Shown piece after piece: positions 8,966 through 21,182 of a DNA stretch of 64,000 nucleotides (positions are counted from its first letter, which is position 1; the number at the start of each line of letters is the position of its first letter). The translations under genes were made by a program, and so were the position numbers. This DNA comes from Chloroflexota bacterium. Its GTDB lineage: Bacteria; Chloroflexota; Anaerolineae; Anaerolineales; Villigracilaceae. Where the stretch lies: NCBI GenBank assembly GCA_021787595.1, contig JAJYLQ010000001.1:186001-250000 (forward strand), read 5' to 3'. The notes beneath the pieces are model-generated. The model made no database searches, was not told the DNA's origin, and saw only the letters and a program-made list of their open reading frames with translations.

Positions 8966-11095
8966 TTATTTCAACAACAAATATCCCAAAATTGCAACGA
9001 CGCCGATGAGAACAAACAGCGCGTAACTGCGGACAAAGCCGTTCTGGAAGCGGCGCAAACCGGCGGCAGCATTCTTCGTCCATTCGCCGAGGCCGTTGAA
9101 GAACGCGTCAATGCCGCGCTGATCCGCATAACGGTTGAGCATGACGTTGCTCAGCCAGTTATACGCGCCAGCAATGACTTTCTCGTGGAACCAATCGTGC
9201 CAGAATTTCCAGTCAATCACGTCTGCGGTGAAACGCGTGATGTCCACATAACGATCAATGAATAAAGCCTTGTAACCTTCGTCCACGAACCACTTGCGTT
9301 CCATGCCGGTAAAGATCGGGCCGAACATTTTCTTGAGCGGATCCGCCTCGCCCGCTTTGAGCGGCTCGCGCCCGTAAAGAAGCCAGGAAATGAAAATGGC
9401 GATCAGTGCCAGCGCGGTGGAAGTCAACGCGACGCTCATGACGAATTCGCCGGGCTCGATGAACTCGACGGTATGTTCGAGCCATTTGGTCAACGTCTCG
9501 ACGCCGGGCAGATTCAATGCGCCCCCGACGACCGACAAAGCGGCCAGCACCATCAACGGTATAGTGATCACCTTCGGGCTTTCTTCCGCTTTCGCGGCGG
9601 CCTCGTGACGCGGCTTGCCAAAGAACACCATCCAAATCTGGCGGCCCATGTAGAACGCGGTGAAGAACGCAGCAATGGTCAGCAGCCAATAAACAGCGCT
9701 GAAACCTCCGCTGAACGCATTGGCAAGGATTTCGTCCTTCGACCAAAAACCCGCGAATGGGAAGACACCAGCCAACGCCAACGCGCCGGTCAAATAAACC
9801 CAAAACGTAACCGGCATGGTCTTGCGAAGCCCACCCATGTTACGCATATCGCCGGGATCGAACGCTTCTTCGCGATGACCTGCATCCTCCCTCGCCCCTT
9901 CACCCCTCTCCCCCTGGGAGAGGGGACGGGGGTGAGGTGATAATGGCGAGTGGTGAGCCAGATGATGATGTCCGCGTTCCATGCCGAGGATGACGGAACC
10001 AGCTGAGAGAAAGAGCAATCCCTTAAAGAAAGCATGTGTGATGAGATGGAACATTCCCGCCGCGAACGCGCCCATGCCAACGCCAGCCACCATGAATCCA
10101 AGCTGGCTGATCGTCGAATAAGCGAGAACCTTTTTGATGTCGTATTGACCCACGGCAATCGTCGCGGCGAACAGGGCAGTCAACGCGCCGACCATCGCCA
10201 CGATGAATTGCGCGGCAGGCACGGTCACATACAACGCAGCGGAACGCGTAACAAGATAAACACCTGCGGTCACCATCGTCGCGGCATGGATCAAAGCCGA
10301 GACCGGAGTCGGGCCCGCCATCGCGTCGGGCAGCCAGACGAAGAGCGGAATTTGCGCCGATTTGCCGGTCACTCCAAGCAACAAGAAAAGCGTGATGGCT
10401 GTGATCAAACCCGGATTGCTCGCGGCAATCGCGGGCGCTTGTTGAAAGACCTGGTCGAATTGGAGGCTGTGGAACGCCCAGAACATCAGGAACGAAGCGA
10501 TCAAGAAACCAAAGTCACCGATGCGGTTGGCGATCATGGCTTTCTTGGCAGCATTGGAATTCGCCCATGAGGGGCGGCCAAGCGTGTCCATCTCGTACCA
10601 GAAGCCGATCAACAGGAAGGAACAAAGTCCCACGCCCTCCCAGCCGACGAACAACATCAGGTACGAGTCGCCGCCCACGAGGATCATCATGGCGGCGATG
10701 AACAGGTTGAGGAAAACGAAGAAACGGCGGAACCGCTTGAGGTCGTTCTTGAAGCGCACATCCTCGCGCATGTATCCGATGGCGTAGATGTGGATCAGCG
10801 TCCCGACGCCGGAGACGACCAGCATCATCGTCGTGGATAACGTATCGACGCGGAACGTCCAATCGAGCTGCAGAGTCCCGATATGGATCCACTCGCCAAT
10901 CGTCCAGCGCACCGCTTCGGGATGCTGTGTCAGCGAATAAGCCAGCAAAACAGAAACAACAAACGCAAGTCCCGAGGCGAGGCTGGCTGCCATGCCGATA
11001 ACCTTTTCACTGAACCGGCCGCCGAAAATAATATTGACCAGGAGGCCAATGACCGGGAAAAAGACAATCCAGGGAGCGAGATAGAAGAACGTCAT
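8966..11095 (-). CDS. nuoL: NADH-quinone oxidoreductase subunit L
   Basis: A 709-residue antiporter-like subunit at the distal end of the complex I membrane arm, ending in the long amphipathic helix region. Recognisable parts are FVGWEGVGLCSFLLIGFW, GKSAQIPLFVWLPDAMAGPTPVSALIHAATMVTAGVYL in pieces, ITHAFFKGLLFLSAGSV and DMRNMGGLRKTMPVTFW. Residues about 386-403 (PRPLSQGERGEGARED) are a translated repeat-A insertion in the hydrophilic loop just before MRNMGGL. The frame stays open, so the protein should be made with an extra 18 or so residues. It starts 3 bp after nuoK. Confidence 0.96.
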   Translation of the reverse strand: MTFFYLAPWIVFFPVIGLLVNIIFGGRFSEKVIGMAASLASGLAFVVSVLLAYSLTQHPEAVRWTIGEWIHIGTLQLDWTFRVDTLSTTMMLVVSGVGTLIHIYAIGYMREDVRFKNDLKRFRRFFVFLNLFIAAMMILVGGDSYLMLFVGWEGVGLCSFLLIGFWYEMDTLGRPSWANSNAAKKAMIANRIGDFGFLIASFLMFWAFHSLQFDQVFQQAPAIAASNPGLITAITLFLLLGVTGKSAQIPLFVWLPDAMAGPTPVSALIHAATMVTAGVYLVTRSAALYVTVPAAQFIVAMVGALTALFAATIAVGQYDIKKVLAYSTISQLGFMVAGVGMGAFAAGMFHLITHAFFKGLLFLSAGSVILGMERGHHHLAHHSPLSPHPRPLSQGERGEGAREDAGHREEAFDPGDMRNMGGLRKTMPVTFWVYLTGALALAGVFPFAGFWSKDEILANAFSGGFSAVYWLLTIAAFFTAFYMGRQIWMVFFGKPRHEAAAKAEESPKVITIPLMVLAALSVVGGALNLPGVETLTKWLEHTVEFIEPGEFVMSVALTSTALALIAIFISWLLYGREPLKAGEADPLKKMFGPIFTGMERKWFVDEGYKALFIDRYVDITRFTADVIDWKFWHDWFHEKVIAGAYNWLSNVMLNRYADQRGIDAFFNGLGEWTKNAAAGLRRFQNGFVRSYALFVLIGVVAILGYLLLK
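9888..9939. repeat. Repeat A, copy A4, inside nuoL
   Basis: CTCGCCCCTTCACCCCTCTC and CTGGGAGAGGGGACGGGGGT with a GAGGTG tail form the repeat-A hairpin within the coding region, in frame and without stop codons. Confidence 0.8.
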
Positions 11096-16361: not shown

Positions 16362-17603
16362 TTATTTTGTAAAATCCTGCGCGAACCTTTCGATGCCCGT
16401 GACCACTGCCATCGTGGAGAATTCACCCAATGGACAAAGGCATTTGTTCTGCATCTGTTTGGCAACGTTCAAAAGTAAATCCACGTTGTCAGTCGAATGC
16501 CCGCCGTCACGAATATCTTCGATCAAATGCATCATCCAATACGTGCCCTCGCGGCACGGCGTGCATTTGCCGCAGGATTCATGTTTGAAGAAATGGATGG
16601 TCTTGTTGATGACCCAGTCCATCGAGACGGTGTCGTCAATCACGATCACGGACGCCGATCCGAGGTCCGCGCCGAGCGTACGGACAGCGGCGTAGTCCAT
16701 TTGCGTATCGAGAACTTTTTCATCCGCAGCGATGAATGAAGATGACGCGCCCGCAGGCATGATGGCCTTGACCGGGCGGCCTTCCTGAACGCCGCCGCCG
16801 TGTTCATAGATCAGCTGGCGGAAGGTTGTGCCAAAAGGCAATTCATAATTTCCGGGCTTGCGAACACGGCCCGAAAGCGAAAAGACTTTCACGCCCGCGC
16901 TGTCCGGCGTTCCCATGTTTTTATACCAGTCCGCGCCGTTGGCAAGAATCATCGGCAAGTTGGTCAACGTTTCGACGTTATTCACGACCGTCGGCTTGCC
17001 GTATAAACCATAAACTGCCGGGAACGGCGGGCGGATGCGCGGCGTTCCGCGTTTGCCTTCGATGGACTCGAGCATGGCCGTCTCTTCGCCGCAGATGTAT
17101 GCGCCCGCGCCGAGATGAGTGTAAATATGAAGCGAATAATCCGTGCCGAAAAGATTCTCGCCGAGAACACCGGCTTCTCCCATCTCCGCGATCTTCTCAT
17201 CGAGGAATTTCGCGACCTGCCAGAACTCGCCGCGCAGATAAACGTACGCGGCGTTCGCGCCGACCGCGTAGGAAGCAATCGCAACGCCCTCCAAAAACTG
17301 GAACGGATTGCTTTCCATGATCTCGCGGTCCTTGAACGTGCCCGGCTCGGACTCGTCCGCGTTGGCAACCACGTAATGCGGCCAGATCTTGTTATCAATG
17401 AACGACCACTTCACGCCGGTCGGGAAGCCTGCGCCGCCGCGCCCGCGCAGCCCGGAAGCCTTGACCGCGTCGGTCACTTCGCCCGGCTTCATCTTCGTGA
17501 CCACTTTTTTGAACGCCTCGAAGCCGCCGTTGCTCTTATATACATTCAGTTTGTTGATATCGGGGATGTCCCGATGACGCAATAGGATATGTGTCATAAG
17601 CAT
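16362..17603 (-). CDS. nuoF: NADH-quinone oxidoreductase subunit F
   Basis: A 413-residue subunit that binds NADH and FMN and carries cluster N3. Visible motifs are GLRGRGGAGFPTGVKW (NADH/FMN loop), ANADESEPGTFKDREIM, CGEETAMLESIEGKRG, PTVVNNVETL and the [4Fe-4S] motif ESCGKCTPCREG...C. The ATG at 17603 follows directly after the TAG of the MNT gene (TAGATG), so translation is probably coupled to it. A second ATG 6 nt on (17597) is the more usual-looking start, MTHILLRHRD. The neighbour upstream should be nuoE, but a HEPN/MNT pair intervenes. Confidence 0.97.
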   Translation of the reverse strand: MLMTHILLRHRDIPDINKLNVYKSNGGFEAFKKVVTKMKPGEVTDAVKASGLRGRGGAGFPTGVKWSFIDNKIWPHYVVANADESEPGTFKDREIMESNPFQFLEGVAIASYAVGANAAYVYLRGEFWQVAKFLDEKIAEMGEAGVLGENLFGTDYSLHIYTHLGAGAYICGEETAMLESIEGKRGTPRIRPPFPAVYGLYGKPTVVNNVETLTNLPMILANGADWYKNMGTPDSAGVKVFSLSGRVRKPGNYELPFGTTFRQLIYEHGGGVQEGRPVKAIMPAGASSSFIAADEKVLDTQMDYAAVRTLGADLGSASVIVIDDTVSMDWVINKTIHFFKHESCGKCTPCREGTYWMMHLIEDIRDGGHSTDNVDLLLNVAKQMQNKCLCPLGEFSTMAVVTGIERFAQDFTK

Positions 17604-17936
17604 CTATTCTGCCAATGGGATGATCTGTCCTTCACGGCGAGCAATTTCGATGATCCAGCTGCTATTGCTTTCATTATATTGTTTTACTCCAACTGCAATC
17701 GGTTCAATACGGCTATCAATATCAGCAGCAACATGCCATAGCTTATCAATATCGCGCCGTTTAGGTCGTTTCTTATCGAAGGACGAAGACACAACAAGCA
17801 AATCTATGTCGCTCCATTCACTGAACTTCCCTGTCGCATAGGAACCAAATATCACACCTGCCGAAACAGGAATACCGTGTTCAGAGAGAGCATGCAGATA
17901 TTTTTTGACAATTTTTACAACAGACTTATTAACCAT
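17604..17936 (-). CDS. MNT-type nucleotidyltransferase antitoxin, inserted in the nuo operon
   Basis: A 110-residue minimal nucleotidyltransferase. GSYATGKFSEWSDIDLLVV shows the GS-x10-DxD catalytic motif, and a third acidic residue would be the Asp of AADIDSRIEPIAV near residue 73. In HEPN/MNT pairs such proteins transfer AMP to the HEPN partner or bind it and so silence it. The gene starts 22 bp inside the HEPN gene and its TAG directly touches the ATG of nuoF. It is AT-richer than the surrounding nuo genes, which suggests acquisition. The pair sits precisely between nuoE and nuoF. Confidence 0.85.
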   Translation of the reverse strand: MVNKSVVKIVKKYLHALSEHGIPVSAGVIFGSYATGKFSEWSDIDLLVVSSSFDKKRPKRRDIDKLWHVAADIDSRIEPIAVGVKQYNESNSSWIIEIARREGQIIPLAE

Positions 17937-18310
17937 TCAAGCGTTCCTTTTGCTCGACGCATATAATACTTGGATTCCGTCAACGAAATTGGAGTGGGTA
18001 AAGTATCGGTATAACGACCTTCGATATTGAACTCATTGACTTCAGCCAGAACTTGTTTATGTTCTACCTTCAACTCAATCTCAGCTATTTCTGCCAGTCG
18101 AATCAAGTTGTGAATTTTTGGTGGCATTTTGCCTGTTTGTTTGACTACATGCGCCTTAACCGCTTTTTCCAATGACAAGTGCACGGCGAACAAGCCCAAC
18201 ATAACTCGTTTACCTTTAATAAGATACAAAGCGTCATCCCATGAAGCCAATGCACCATCACGCCAATGAGTTATTTGTTTTTCTACATCAAACTCCGACT
18301 CGTCGCTCAT
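17915..18310 (-). CDS. HEPN-domain protein, inserted in the nuo operon
   Basis: A 131-residue HEPN-domain protein. WRDGALASWDDALYLIKGKRVMLGLFAVHLSLEKAVKAHVV (seen in pieces) is the typical first half, PPKIHNLIRLAE the middle helix, and FNIEGRYTD the Rx(Y) motif of the HEPN superfamily. Many HEPN proteins are metal-independent RNases with an R-x4-6-H site. Here a His in that exact spacing is not evident, so RNase activity is uncertain. It starts 15 bp after nuoE and overlaps the MNT gene by 22 bp. It could be a toxin-antitoxin pair or a HEPN/MNT unit with another role. Confidence 0.8.
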   Translation of the reverse strand: MSDESEFDVEKQITHWRDGALASWDDALYLIKGKRVMLGLFAVHLSLEKAVKAHVVKQTGKMPPKIHNLIRLAEIAEIELKVEHKQVLAEVNEFNIEGRYTDTLPTPISLTESKYYMRRAKGTLEWLISLL

Positions 18311-18325
18311 GTTTTTCTTTACACG

Positions 18326-18829
18326 CTACGAATTGCTTTCGGCTTTTCTCAACGCCTCGATCAATTCCATCGTCTTATCTACATTCATATCTTCGTAATA
18401 CTTCAATCCGTCGCCGCTTTGGATCTGGAACATCGGCGCACGATCACAGGCCGCGAGACAAGTCACCGCTTCGAGCGTGACCAAGCCATCGGCGGTCGTC
18501 TCGCCGACTTTGATCCCAAGGTTGGAGCATAACGACTCCATGAATTGATCCGCGCCGCGCAACGCGCAGGGCAGATCGGTGCAAACCTGCATCCGATACT
18601 TGCCCTCTTTTTTATCGTGATACAAAGTGTAAAAGCCAACCACCGAGCCGACATCCGTCACGCTGATCTCAAGCGCATCGGCAATGTCCTGCATCGCTTC
18701 TTTTGTGATGTAACCGTCTTCGCGTTGCGCGAGATACAGCAGCGGCATCACCGCCGAGCGTTTATGTTCGGGCGGATACTTCGCCAGAATTTGTTTGACT
18801 TCTTTGGGATATTTTTCAGCGAGACTCAT
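18326..18829 (-). CDS. nuoE: NADH-quinone oxidoreductase subunit E
   Basis: A 167-residue thioredoxin-fold subunit carrying the off-path [2Fe-2S] cluster N1a. The four ligands are the Cys pair in QVCTDLPCAL (C-x4-C, near residue 80) and in CLAACDRAP (C-x3-C). The N-terminal helical part has KYPPEHKRSAVMPLLYLAQREDGYI, typical of the family. The start overlaps the nuoD stop by 4 bp (ATGA). Its usual direct partner NuoF is encoded 723 bp further on, beyond the HEPN/MNT insertion. Confidence 0.97.
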   Translation of the reverse strand: MSLAEKYPKEVKQILAKYPPEHKRSAVMPLLYLAQREDGYITKEAMQDIADALEISVTDVGSVVGFYTLYHDKKEGKYRMQVCTDLPCALRGADQFMESLCSNLGIKVGETTADGLVTLEAVTCLAACDRAPMFQIQSGDGLKYYEDMNVDKTMELIEALRKAESNS

Positions 18830-20061
18830 CGGTCAATGTCTCCGAGAACGATGTCAGTGGAAGCGAGGATGGCTATCAAATCGGCCACCAGGTGTCCCCT
18901 GACGATTTGAGGTACCACCGAAAGGTTATCGAACGAAGGCGTGCGCCAATGGACGCGGTATGGTTTGGGGCCGCCGTCACCTTCCAGGTAAACGGCCAGT
19001 TCGCCGCGCGGGGATTCAACCGCACTGTAAATGGAAGCCTTCGGCGCGGGGAAGCCTTCCGTCCACAACTTGAAGTGATGGATCAGCGCCTCCATGCTGG
19101 TGCCGATCTCGGAGCGCGGCGGCGTGACGAATTTGCGGTTGTCGCTGCGGACAGGGCCCATCGGCAATTTGTCCAATGCCTGTTCGACGATCTTCAACGA
19201 TTCACGCAGCTCCTGCACGCGGACAACATAACGCGCGTAGGTATCGCCTTTTGTATCGGTCGGCACATTGAAATCATATTGTTCATAACCCATGTACGGA
19301 CGCGCCTTACGCAAATCCCAATTGACGCCGGAAGCGCGCAGCATTGGTCCGGTCACGCCGTGTTGAAGCGCGGTCGCCGCGTCGAGTTTGCCGATGCCCA
19401 CCGTCCGGTCGAGCCAGAGCGGATTCTTCGTCAACAAAGCTTCATATTCATCAATGCGCTTCGGGAGCAACTTAATGAAATCGCGCACCGCGGCTTCGAA
19501 TTCCACCGGCACATCGCGCCACACACCGCCGGGGCGGAAGTACGTCACCATCATGCGCTGGCCGGAGACCATCTCGAAGATGTCGAGGATAATTTCGCGC
19601 TCGCGGAAACAATAGAGGAAGACCGACATCGCCGCCAGGTCGAGCGCTGTGGTGCCAAGCCAGACCAAATGCGAGGCGATGCGCTGCAGTTCGGTCAGGA
19701 TCACGCGCAAAGCCTGCGCGCGCGGCGGCACGTCGAGGCCGACCAATTTCTCGACCGCCATCACATACGCAAGGTTATTGCCCATGTTGTTCATATAATC
19801 CAGGCGGTCGGTCATCACTTCGGCCTTGAGATACGTCTTGGCTTCCATGTTCTTCTCGATGCCTGTGTGCAAATAACCGATCTCTGGGATGCAGTTAACA
19901 ATGACTTCGCCGTCCAGTTCGAGCACCAGGCGTAGAACACCGTGCGTAGAGGGATGCTGCGGCCCCATGTTCAAGATCATGGTCTCGCCCGAAACGGCGC
20001 GTTCCGAAACTAAATGTTTATAGGGCCCGACAGGAATCTCCTGCAGTTGATATTCACTCAT
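18826..20061 (-). CDS. nuoD: NADH-quinone oxidoreductase subunit D
   Basis: A 411-residue 49-kDa subunit, derived from [NiFe]-hydrogenase large subunits, that forms the quinone-binding site with NuoB. The signatures are MGPQHPSTHGVLRLVLELDGE, GYLHTGIEKNMEAKTYLKAE and IDRTVGIG-like DRTVGIGKL, plus RIAPAGEVYS-like RVHWRTPSF near the end. The hydrogenase cysteines are absent, as expected. It is followed without gap by nuoE and preceded by a 52-bp gap with a GAAGATT/AATCTTC hairpin (20085-20101). Confidence 0.97.
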   Translation of the reverse strand: MSEYQLQEIPVGPYKHLVSERAVSGETMILNMGPQHPSTHGVLRLVLELDGEVIVNCIPEIGYLHTGIEKNMEAKTYLKAEVMTDRLDYMNNMGNNLAYVMAVEKLVGLDVPPRAQALRVILTELQRIASHLVWLGTTALDLAAMSVFLYCFREREIILDIFEMVSGQRMMVTYFRPGGVWRDVPVEFEAAVRDFIKLLPKRIDEYEALLTKNPLWLDRTVGIGKLDAATALQHGVTGPMLRASGVNWDLRKARPYMGYEQYDFNVPTDTKGDTYARYVVRVQELRESLKIVEQALDKLPMGPVRSDNRKFVTPPRSEIGTSMEALIHHFKLWTEGFPAPKASIYSAVESPRGELAVYLEGDGGPKPYRVHWRTPSFDNLSVVPQIVRGHLVADLIAILASTDIVLGDIDR

Positions 20062-20113: not shown

Positions 20114-20632
20114 CTATTCCTTGACATACGGTTTACGCACGTCAATCTCTTCAAAGTTGAACGTAAACTGCGGCTCTTCATAGCCCAGCGGAAAATCCTT
20201 GCGGAGCGGATGCCCGTCCAGGTCATCGGGCAGAAGAATGCGGCGCGGATCGGGATGGCCTTCGAATTCGATCCCGAACATATCCATGATCTCGCGCTCG
20301 CGCCAGTTCGCAGCCGCAAACACGCCGGTCGCGGTCGGGACCTTGAGCCGGCTTCCGTTCACCGGGACTCTCAACTGCACCGACAGATTCCGCGCCAGCG
20401 ATGTAAGCTGGTAGATCACATGAAAACGCGGACGCGAAGCATCCTGCGGCCAGTAATCCACCGCCGTCATGGCGGAGAGCAGCGCAAATTCGTGCGCATC
20501 GCGCAAAAGCGTCAACGCCTCGATAATGTGTTCCGGTTTGACAAAGACGTGCGCTTCGCCGCGAAACTCTTCGAGCGTTGCGCCGAATTTTTCTTGTAAT
20601 GTTTGGACGATCTTTTCGAGTTTAGTGTCCAT
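20114..20632 (-). CDS. nuoC: NADH-quinone oxidoreductase subunit C
   Basis: A 172-residue 30-kDa-type subunit of the peripheral arm. The C-terminal signature is NWREREIMDMFGIEFEGHPDPRRILLPDDLDGHPLRKDFPLGY, seen in pieces, which packs against NuoD. The N-terminal half is the variable alpha/beta domain. NuoC and NuoD are separate genes here, unlike the fused NuoCD of E. coli. The upstream 61-bp gap to nuoB contains an AT-rich imperfect palindrome (TTCGATACTCGAAATTCGA with ATCGAATATCGAATT). The ribosome-binding site (TAGAGAT) is weak. Confidence 0.96.
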   Translation of the reverse strand: MDTKLEKIVQTLQEKFGATLEEFRGEAHVFVKPEHIIEALTLLRDAHEFALLSAMTAVDYWPQDASRPRFHVIYQLTSLARNLSVQLRVPVNGSRLKVPTATGVFAAANWREREIMDMFGIEFEGHPDPRRILLPDDLDGHPLRKDFPLGYEEPQFTFNFEEIDVRKPYVKE

Positions 20633-20693: not shown

Positions 20694-21182
20694 TTACGCT
20701 TTCGCTGCATCCTTGAACCTTTCACCCTTGACCTTTTCGGACAAAGTCAGCACACCGTGGATCAAAGCCTCCGGTCGCGGCGGGCAGCCAGCCACGTAAA
20801 CATCAACAGGCACTACTTCGTCCACGCCCTGGACAATGGCGTAATTATTGAACACGCCGCCGCACGAAGCGCAATCGCCCATGGCGATCACCCATTTCGG
20901 TTCGGGCATCTGGTCATACAAACGGCGCAGGACCGGCGCCATTTTGCGCGAGACCCGTCCCGCCACGATCATCAAATCCGATTGCCGCGGGCTGGGGCGC
21001 ATCAGCTCCATCCCAAAACGGCTCATGTCGTAACTTGCGGCCTGCGCCGCCATCATTTCGATGGCGCAGCAAGCCAGTCCGAACAACATCGGCCACATGG
21101 CATTCGTACGCGCCCAGTTCACGGCAGTTTCGAGCGTGGTCGTCACCACGCCCATGTTGCCGAGTTTCTGCTCTACTCCCAT
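20694..21182 (-). CDS. nuoB: NADH-quinone oxidoreductase subunit B
   Basis: A 162-residue subunit holding the terminal [4Fe-4S] cluster N2 that reduces quinone. The four cysteines appear in [11 protein letters not shown] (adjacent pair), GDCASCGG and [34 protein letters not shown] is the family core. The gene overlaps nuoA by 10 bp. The start at 21182 gives [18 protein letters not shown]; the second Met (residue 10) is possible but less well placed. Confidence 0.97.

Follow-up and report, generated by a model that had tools for sequence, protein, structure and literature searches.

Why does a two-gene HEPN/MNT unit stand among the genes for complex I, exactly between nuoE and nuoF, how did it come to be there, and how is nuoF read behind it? 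On the minus strand of the window (the whole stretch of DNA that was analysed, 64,000 nucleotides), nuoB (20694-21182), nuoC (20114-20632), nuoD (18826-20061), and nuoE (18326-18829; PF01257, E = 5.6e-48) are followed by a gene for a 131-residue HEPN protein, the putative toxin (17915-18310; PF05168, E = 3.8e-13), a gene for a 110-residue MNT protein, the putative adenylyltransferase antitoxin (17604-17936; PF01909, E = 6.1e-10), nuoF (16362-17597; PF01512, E = 4.7e-44), and nuoG. Pfam agreed for all five of the genes submitted, nuoD to nuoF, and together with the coordinates confirmed the placement given in an earlier note on this DNA, including the 15-bp spacing between nuoE and the HEPN gene. 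The HEPN and MNT genes overlap by 22 bp (17915-17936), a length that is identical in the other intact nuo-located pairs examined. The Shine-Dalgarno sequence of MNT, AAGGA (17945-17949), lies within the 3' codons of HEPN, as it does in 19 of 21 relatives, and is retained at loci with a broken HEPN. The 4.08-Mb genome has ten HEPN (PF05168) matches and a single copy of the nuo-located pair. The description of a toxin-antitoxin-type unit in a nuo operon as unusual was supported, and a literature search, thin on subscription journals, found no published description of HEPN/MNT in nuo.

Both borders of the insert differ from those of an empty junction. The nuoE gene of the window ends in EALRKAESNS*, compared with ..EVK* at empty sites, and with these last codons altered the usual nuoF Shine-Dalgarno sequence carried there is gone. 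In its place stand the MNT stop codon TAG and a 6-nt leader (17598-17606, here TAGATGCTT; elsewhere mostly TA(A)GAGACYT); the leader between MNT and nuoF is usually AGAGACTT or AGAGACCT and is AGATGCTT in the window. The TAG does directly abut an ATG, at 17603, from which the open reading frame was called (16362-17603), but the claim that nuoF starts there probably does not hold: relatives begin at the second ATG (17597), 6 nt downstream, with the conserved start MTHILLRH, and the usual TAG-AGACTT-ATG has turned into TAG-ATGCTT-ATG in the window genome. The ATG at 17603 is probably a local addition rather than the conserved nuoF start. Two further features of the window were observed. An imperfect direct repeat, 839 bp apart, flanks the pair (17504-17548 within nuoF codons, NVYKSNGGFEAFKK; 18343-18387 at the nuoE 3' end, NVDKTMELIEALRK) and may be due to chance, and nuoL (8966-11095) contains a low-complexity insert (HHHLAHHSPLSPHPRPLSQGERGEGAREDAGHREE) that resembles an intergenic-type repeat read in frame.

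Class of the two proteins and selection on their genes

Class II HEPN/MNT pairs combine PF05168 with PF01909 (PMC7641770, 2020; the HEPN-T of PMC3710099, 2013), and their HEPN lacks RX4HXY but has a conserved Tyr (PMC7641770). The HEPN of the window scored 50.1 bits against PF05168 (cut-off 22), lacks RX4HXY, and has invariant H44, H67, R99, and Y100, R99-Y100 being constant in 21 homologues; its AlphaFold model (pLDDT 92.9) matches TT1696 (1ufb, TM 0.79) and the archaeal HEPN ST0689 (1wol). In the MNT protein the GSX10DXD motif (GSYATGKFSEWSDID) is intact, with G31, S32, D43, and D45 invariant in 17 homologues. It matches the NCBIfam MntA_antitoxin model with E = 5.5e-8 at 32.6 bits, which is under the cut-off of 60, and the solved MntA structure 5yep with E = 0.0024. 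A defence-system label was rejected, as the PADLOC models gave no match to HEPN and only generic candidate models matched MNT. By its motifs and predicted fold, the pair of the window is a Class II HEPN/MNT module. By 2020 no biochemical work on Class II pairs had appeared, and their toxin-antitoxin status was said to need further study (PMC7641770), so the toxin label is a putative one; the absence of RX4HXY from HEPN likewise counts against the toxin-antitoxin reading. Both genes are under purifying selection, with dN/dS values of 0.04-0.15 where dS is unsaturated.

Recurrence at the junction and movement between lineages

When 150 family genomes were searched with HEPN, 37 had some match, and every match better than E = 1e-20 directly follows nuoE. 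The nuoE-nuoF junctions were also read whatever their content, in almost all genomes that yielded a nuoE contig (142 junctions): 103 were empty, 22 held the pair lineage of the window, 13 had short non-coding gaps, two held a divergent HEPN, one a DUF4258 insert (G015), and one an MNT-tail remnant alone (G033, L131). None of the other five genomes in the genus of the window has an insert here. Two genomes from a second family of the order also carry the pair between nuoE and nuoF, and in a GTDB scan with the MNT alignment this arrangement occurred in Chloroflexota records only. Complex I genes have a further insertion site, as a related pair lies between nuoL and nuoM (L172, VGOD01000120, 3031-3830), beside a repeat-rich ORF and one that is DUF3800-like. 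Few related pairs stand outside nuo (L174, L183, L232, and L237).

The comparison of relatives' nuo operons that had been proposed thus found the pair to recur, in 22 of 142 junctions and in records outside the sample. A chimeric assembly or binning artefact, which might be suspected because the sources are mostly MAGs and the insert is lower in GC than its neighbours, was rejected on the strength of this recurrence: many independent MAGs, which differ in study and habitat of origin, show the same architecture on contigs of up to megabase size (3.1 Mb for G041 C1), leaving the artefact with a negligible probability. The earlier note had held that uniqueness to one assembly, or inertness together with absence from sister strains, would count against its reading. 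The insertion is not confined to one assembly, and the pair is indeed absent from sister genomes; in view of the dN/dS values of 0.04-0.15, this absence points to mobility and not to inertness.

The junction also has other occupants. In G015 (L123) a 570-bp gap encodes a DUF4258 protein (Pfam E = 1.6e-17) together with a small CxxC protein that has no match in Pfam; the two may form a further toxin-antitoxin pair. The junction thus accepts unrelated two-gene inserts. A divergent HEPN, in which the invariant Arg is gone (RY to LY), was found in G102 (L116), in G040 (L152), and as the first HEPN of L120 (G079). In G102 and G040 it lacks an MNT partner and ends in the last MNT codons (PLAE* or PLAK*), as though a deletion had fused the two genes; a HEPN kept without MNT speaks against the toxin-antitoxin reading, although this one no longer has R99. 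In G011 (L142) a complete HEPN-MNT pair is preceded by an additional MNT tail, which the 3' end of nuoE enters out of frame, and this tail reads as a sign of tandem duplication or of repeated insertion with deletion. In one MAG, G141, there are two related nuoEF loci (L058 and L069), of which one has the pair and the other a scar; they come from mixed strains or are two copies. Scar gaps (L049, L069, L112, L212, and others) contain short repeats of the AATTACC or TGCGTA type. That the site takes other inserts (the DUF4258 and CxxC genes in G015, the divergent HEPN in G102 and G040) and that HEPN has decayed at 6 of 22 sites would suit a neutral passenger, tolerated at an insertion hot spot and without toxin-antitoxin function. 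We consider this quite unlikely, however, as both genes have dN/dS values as low as given above, GSX10DXD and R99-Y100 are invariant, and the 22-bp overlap is conserved.

The history of the pair does not follow that of its neighbours. On the nuoEF tree, the distribution of 21 pair carriers needs 20 changes, as against a mean of 19.9 for shuffled labels, and at least 17 changes are forced by well-supported branches. The nuoEF tree rejects a group made up of the window and the two owners of the pairs nearest to its own, G130 and G054 (p-AU 7e-65); the pair, in turn, rejects a union of G054 and G114 (p-AU 4e-4), sisters on nuoEF that hold deeply different pairs. GC is lower in the insert than in nuoE in 21 of 21 cases. 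All nuo-located pairs in the tree fall into one well-supported clade of 27 rows (98/91), which includes L172, L174, and L183, and a single clade of nuoE-F pairs was not rejected (p-AU 0.443). Carriers scattered like shuffled labels, together with the conflict between the pair and nuoEF trees, indicate that the pair moves between lineages. We conclude that the HEPN/MNT pair has been gained and lost repeatedly at one exact site and moves between lineages.

An ancestral pair with vertical inheritance and many losses would be compatible with the result that all nuoE-F copies may be one clade and with the existence of scars, such as the MNT-tail remnants in G033 and G011; true losses of the pair leave scars. 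Empty sites, however, keep the ancestral nuoE tail and are therefore not simply deletions: the intact tail and the Shine-Dalgarno sequence common to empty sites (88 of 89) are not restorable by deletion. Since the tree conflict is strong and the sisters G054 and G114 have such different pairs, this explanation is already disfavoured, and we regard it as improbable.

For a pair that moves, the flanks indicate how much is carried along. When occupied genomes are compared with their empty sisters, the drop in identity is confined to the final ∼45 bp of nuoE and the opening ∼30 bp of nuoF, and long-tract homologous replacement of nuoEF was accordingly rejected. Occupied genomes are more alike than they are to their empty sisters at the nuoE EALRK codons (15 of 17 pairs, p = 4e-4) and at nuoF codons 2-7 (15 of 17 pairs, p = 0.003); segments further out showed no such excess likeness. 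The flank common to carriers is thus only about 5 nuoE and 6 nuoF codons (about 15-20 bp on each side), and we read these ends as parts that hitch-hike with a mobile unit some 750 bp long. The likeness on the nuoF side could also stem from convergence once the Shine-Dalgarno sequence was lost, but that on the nuoE side hardly could. Between nuoE and nuoF there is only HEPN and MNT and no recombinase or endonuclease of the unit's own, and no inverted terminal repeat was found at the pair. A phage or plasmid vehicle was rejected after searches of viral contigs, plasmids, and phages gave no match. Spread would most likely proceed by host recombination at the conserved nuoE and nuoF sequence beside the insert.

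Transcription of the pair and translation of nuoF

The earlier note had left the pair either dependent on the nuo promoter or with its own promoter inside nuoE. The minus strand from nuoD to HEPN contains no promoter-like site, the count of sites being below that of shuffles, and an internal promoter was rejected; the sole promoter-like site of the region on this strand is upstream of nuoA, which fits a pair carried on the nuo transcript.

At translation level the insert brings a marked change. A strong nuoF Shine-Dalgarno sequence is present within the nuoE tail at 88 of 89 empty sites (anti-SD energy: median -10.9, all <= -4.0) and at none of 21 occupied sites (-1.7 to -2.9); what the cassette puts in its place is an MNT stop codon shortly ahead of the nuoF ATG. 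This stop and the nuoF ATG are 4-9 nt apart in occupied genomes, and the spacing between nuoE and HEPN varies widely. The suggestion that nuoF may be translated by coupling to the antitoxin gene was therefore upheld at the level of probability: by sequence context, nuoF translation is probably coupled to MNT by termination-reinitiation. Such coupling is not obligatory, since 11 of 14 sites with a scar or another insert have neither a nuoF Shine-Dalgarno sequence nor the pair and yet keep nuoF; three related scar genomes do have the Shine-Dalgarno sequence.

Decay of the pair is one-sided. HEPN is broken and MNT intact at 6 of the 22 sites (by deletion in G112 and G121, by loss of the N-terminus in G035 and G041, by a frameshift in G054, and by a stop codon in G032), and the reverse was found at none; for six of six decays to fall in HEPN, p is about 0.03 by gene length alone. 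This count includes only junctions found through nuoE and excludes loci found with the MNT query, which are biased to intact MNT. The pattern fits a toxin and its antitoxin but also an MNT gene retained for nuoF, as coupling to nuoF alone could maintain MNT.

The further proposal that complex I output is tied to the pair was not borne out, given that most relatives manage without the pair, that gain and loss are rapid, and that HEPN often decays. The same observations weigh on a domesticated regulator, in which the pair would tune respiration, through adenylylation of a complex I subunit by MNT (or binding of nuo mRNA by HEPN), and would owe its retention to this role. Strong purifying selection, the near-exclusive residence of the clade in nuo with one further copy between nuoL and nuoM (L172), and the retention of MNT where HEPN is lost would agree with such a role. 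Turnover is rapid, however, with most close relatives lacking the pair, HEPN decays often, the clade has members outside nuo (L174, L232, and L237), and an unrelated two-gene insert occupies the same site in G015, all of which make a domesticated regulator unlikely.

Proposed mechanism and comparison with known systems

The reading that we favour, with a probability of roughly two in three, is that of a Class II HEPN/MNT module, probably a toxin-antitoxin system, which behaves as a recombining cassette on the nuo transcript and to which nuoF translation is probably coupled through MNT. In the mechanism that we propose, HEPN and MNT would be transcribed from the nuo promoter, MNT would be translated from its own Shine-Dalgarno sequence inside HEPN, and nuoF would mostly be translated by ribosomes that end MNT and then reinitiate. 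MNT, by its putative activity, would adenylylate and silence HEPN, with the invariant Tyr100 as a possible target. A damaged antitoxin gene would in that case mean both a freed toxin and less NuoF, and this would account for decay that strikes HEPN and spares MNT. A bolder version, which we put forward only tentatively, is a toxin-antitoxin cassette resembling a homing element: spreading horizontally into one junction, it would cost nuoF its ribosome-binding site and make nuoF dependent on antitoxin reading, so that the host would be doubly locked in, loss of the antitoxin both freeing the toxin and cutting complex I.

If this were true, toxin-antitoxin modules could persist on a chromosome by parasitising an operon, with a fixed site, borrowed host transcription, and an antitoxin gene that takes over translation of the next respiratory gene. 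The junction offers a clean system for asking whether the abundant Class II HEPN/MNT pairs act as toxin-antitoxin systems in the first place, for which the decay of HEPN with MNT staying argues, and how a gene pair that lacks a recombinase reaches the same site repeatedly on flanks of ∼15-20 bp.

The window pair resembles known Class II HEPN/MNT pairs in its PF05168 HEPN without RX4HXY, the conserved Tyr, the MNT motif GSX10DXD, and the fold match. It differs from them in residing at one fixed junction inside a core respiratory operon and in removing the downstream Shine-Dalgarno sequence; moreover, MNT is almost always 5' of HEPN (PMC3710099), whereas HEPN stands 5' of MNT here. With the type VII HepT/MntA system of Shewanella oneidensis (Class I, DUF86 HEPN) it shares the two-gene HEPN and MNT composition and a weakly MntA-like MNT, but its HEPN belongs to another Pfam family (PF05168 only), lacks RX4HXY, and is a poor structural match to HepT. 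Compared with self-mobile elements such as transposons, integron cassettes, and homing elements, the window-type pair shows recurrent gain at one site and has no recombinase of its own. Toxin-antitoxin genes also occur embedded in operons of the host or of mobile elements, restriction-modification operons and Tn3 transposons being examples. Like such operon-embedded genes (cf. PMC7157771), the window pair rides on another transcription unit; unlike them, its host unit is nuo, its site is constant, and the pair itself provides the immediate upstream context of a respiratory gene.
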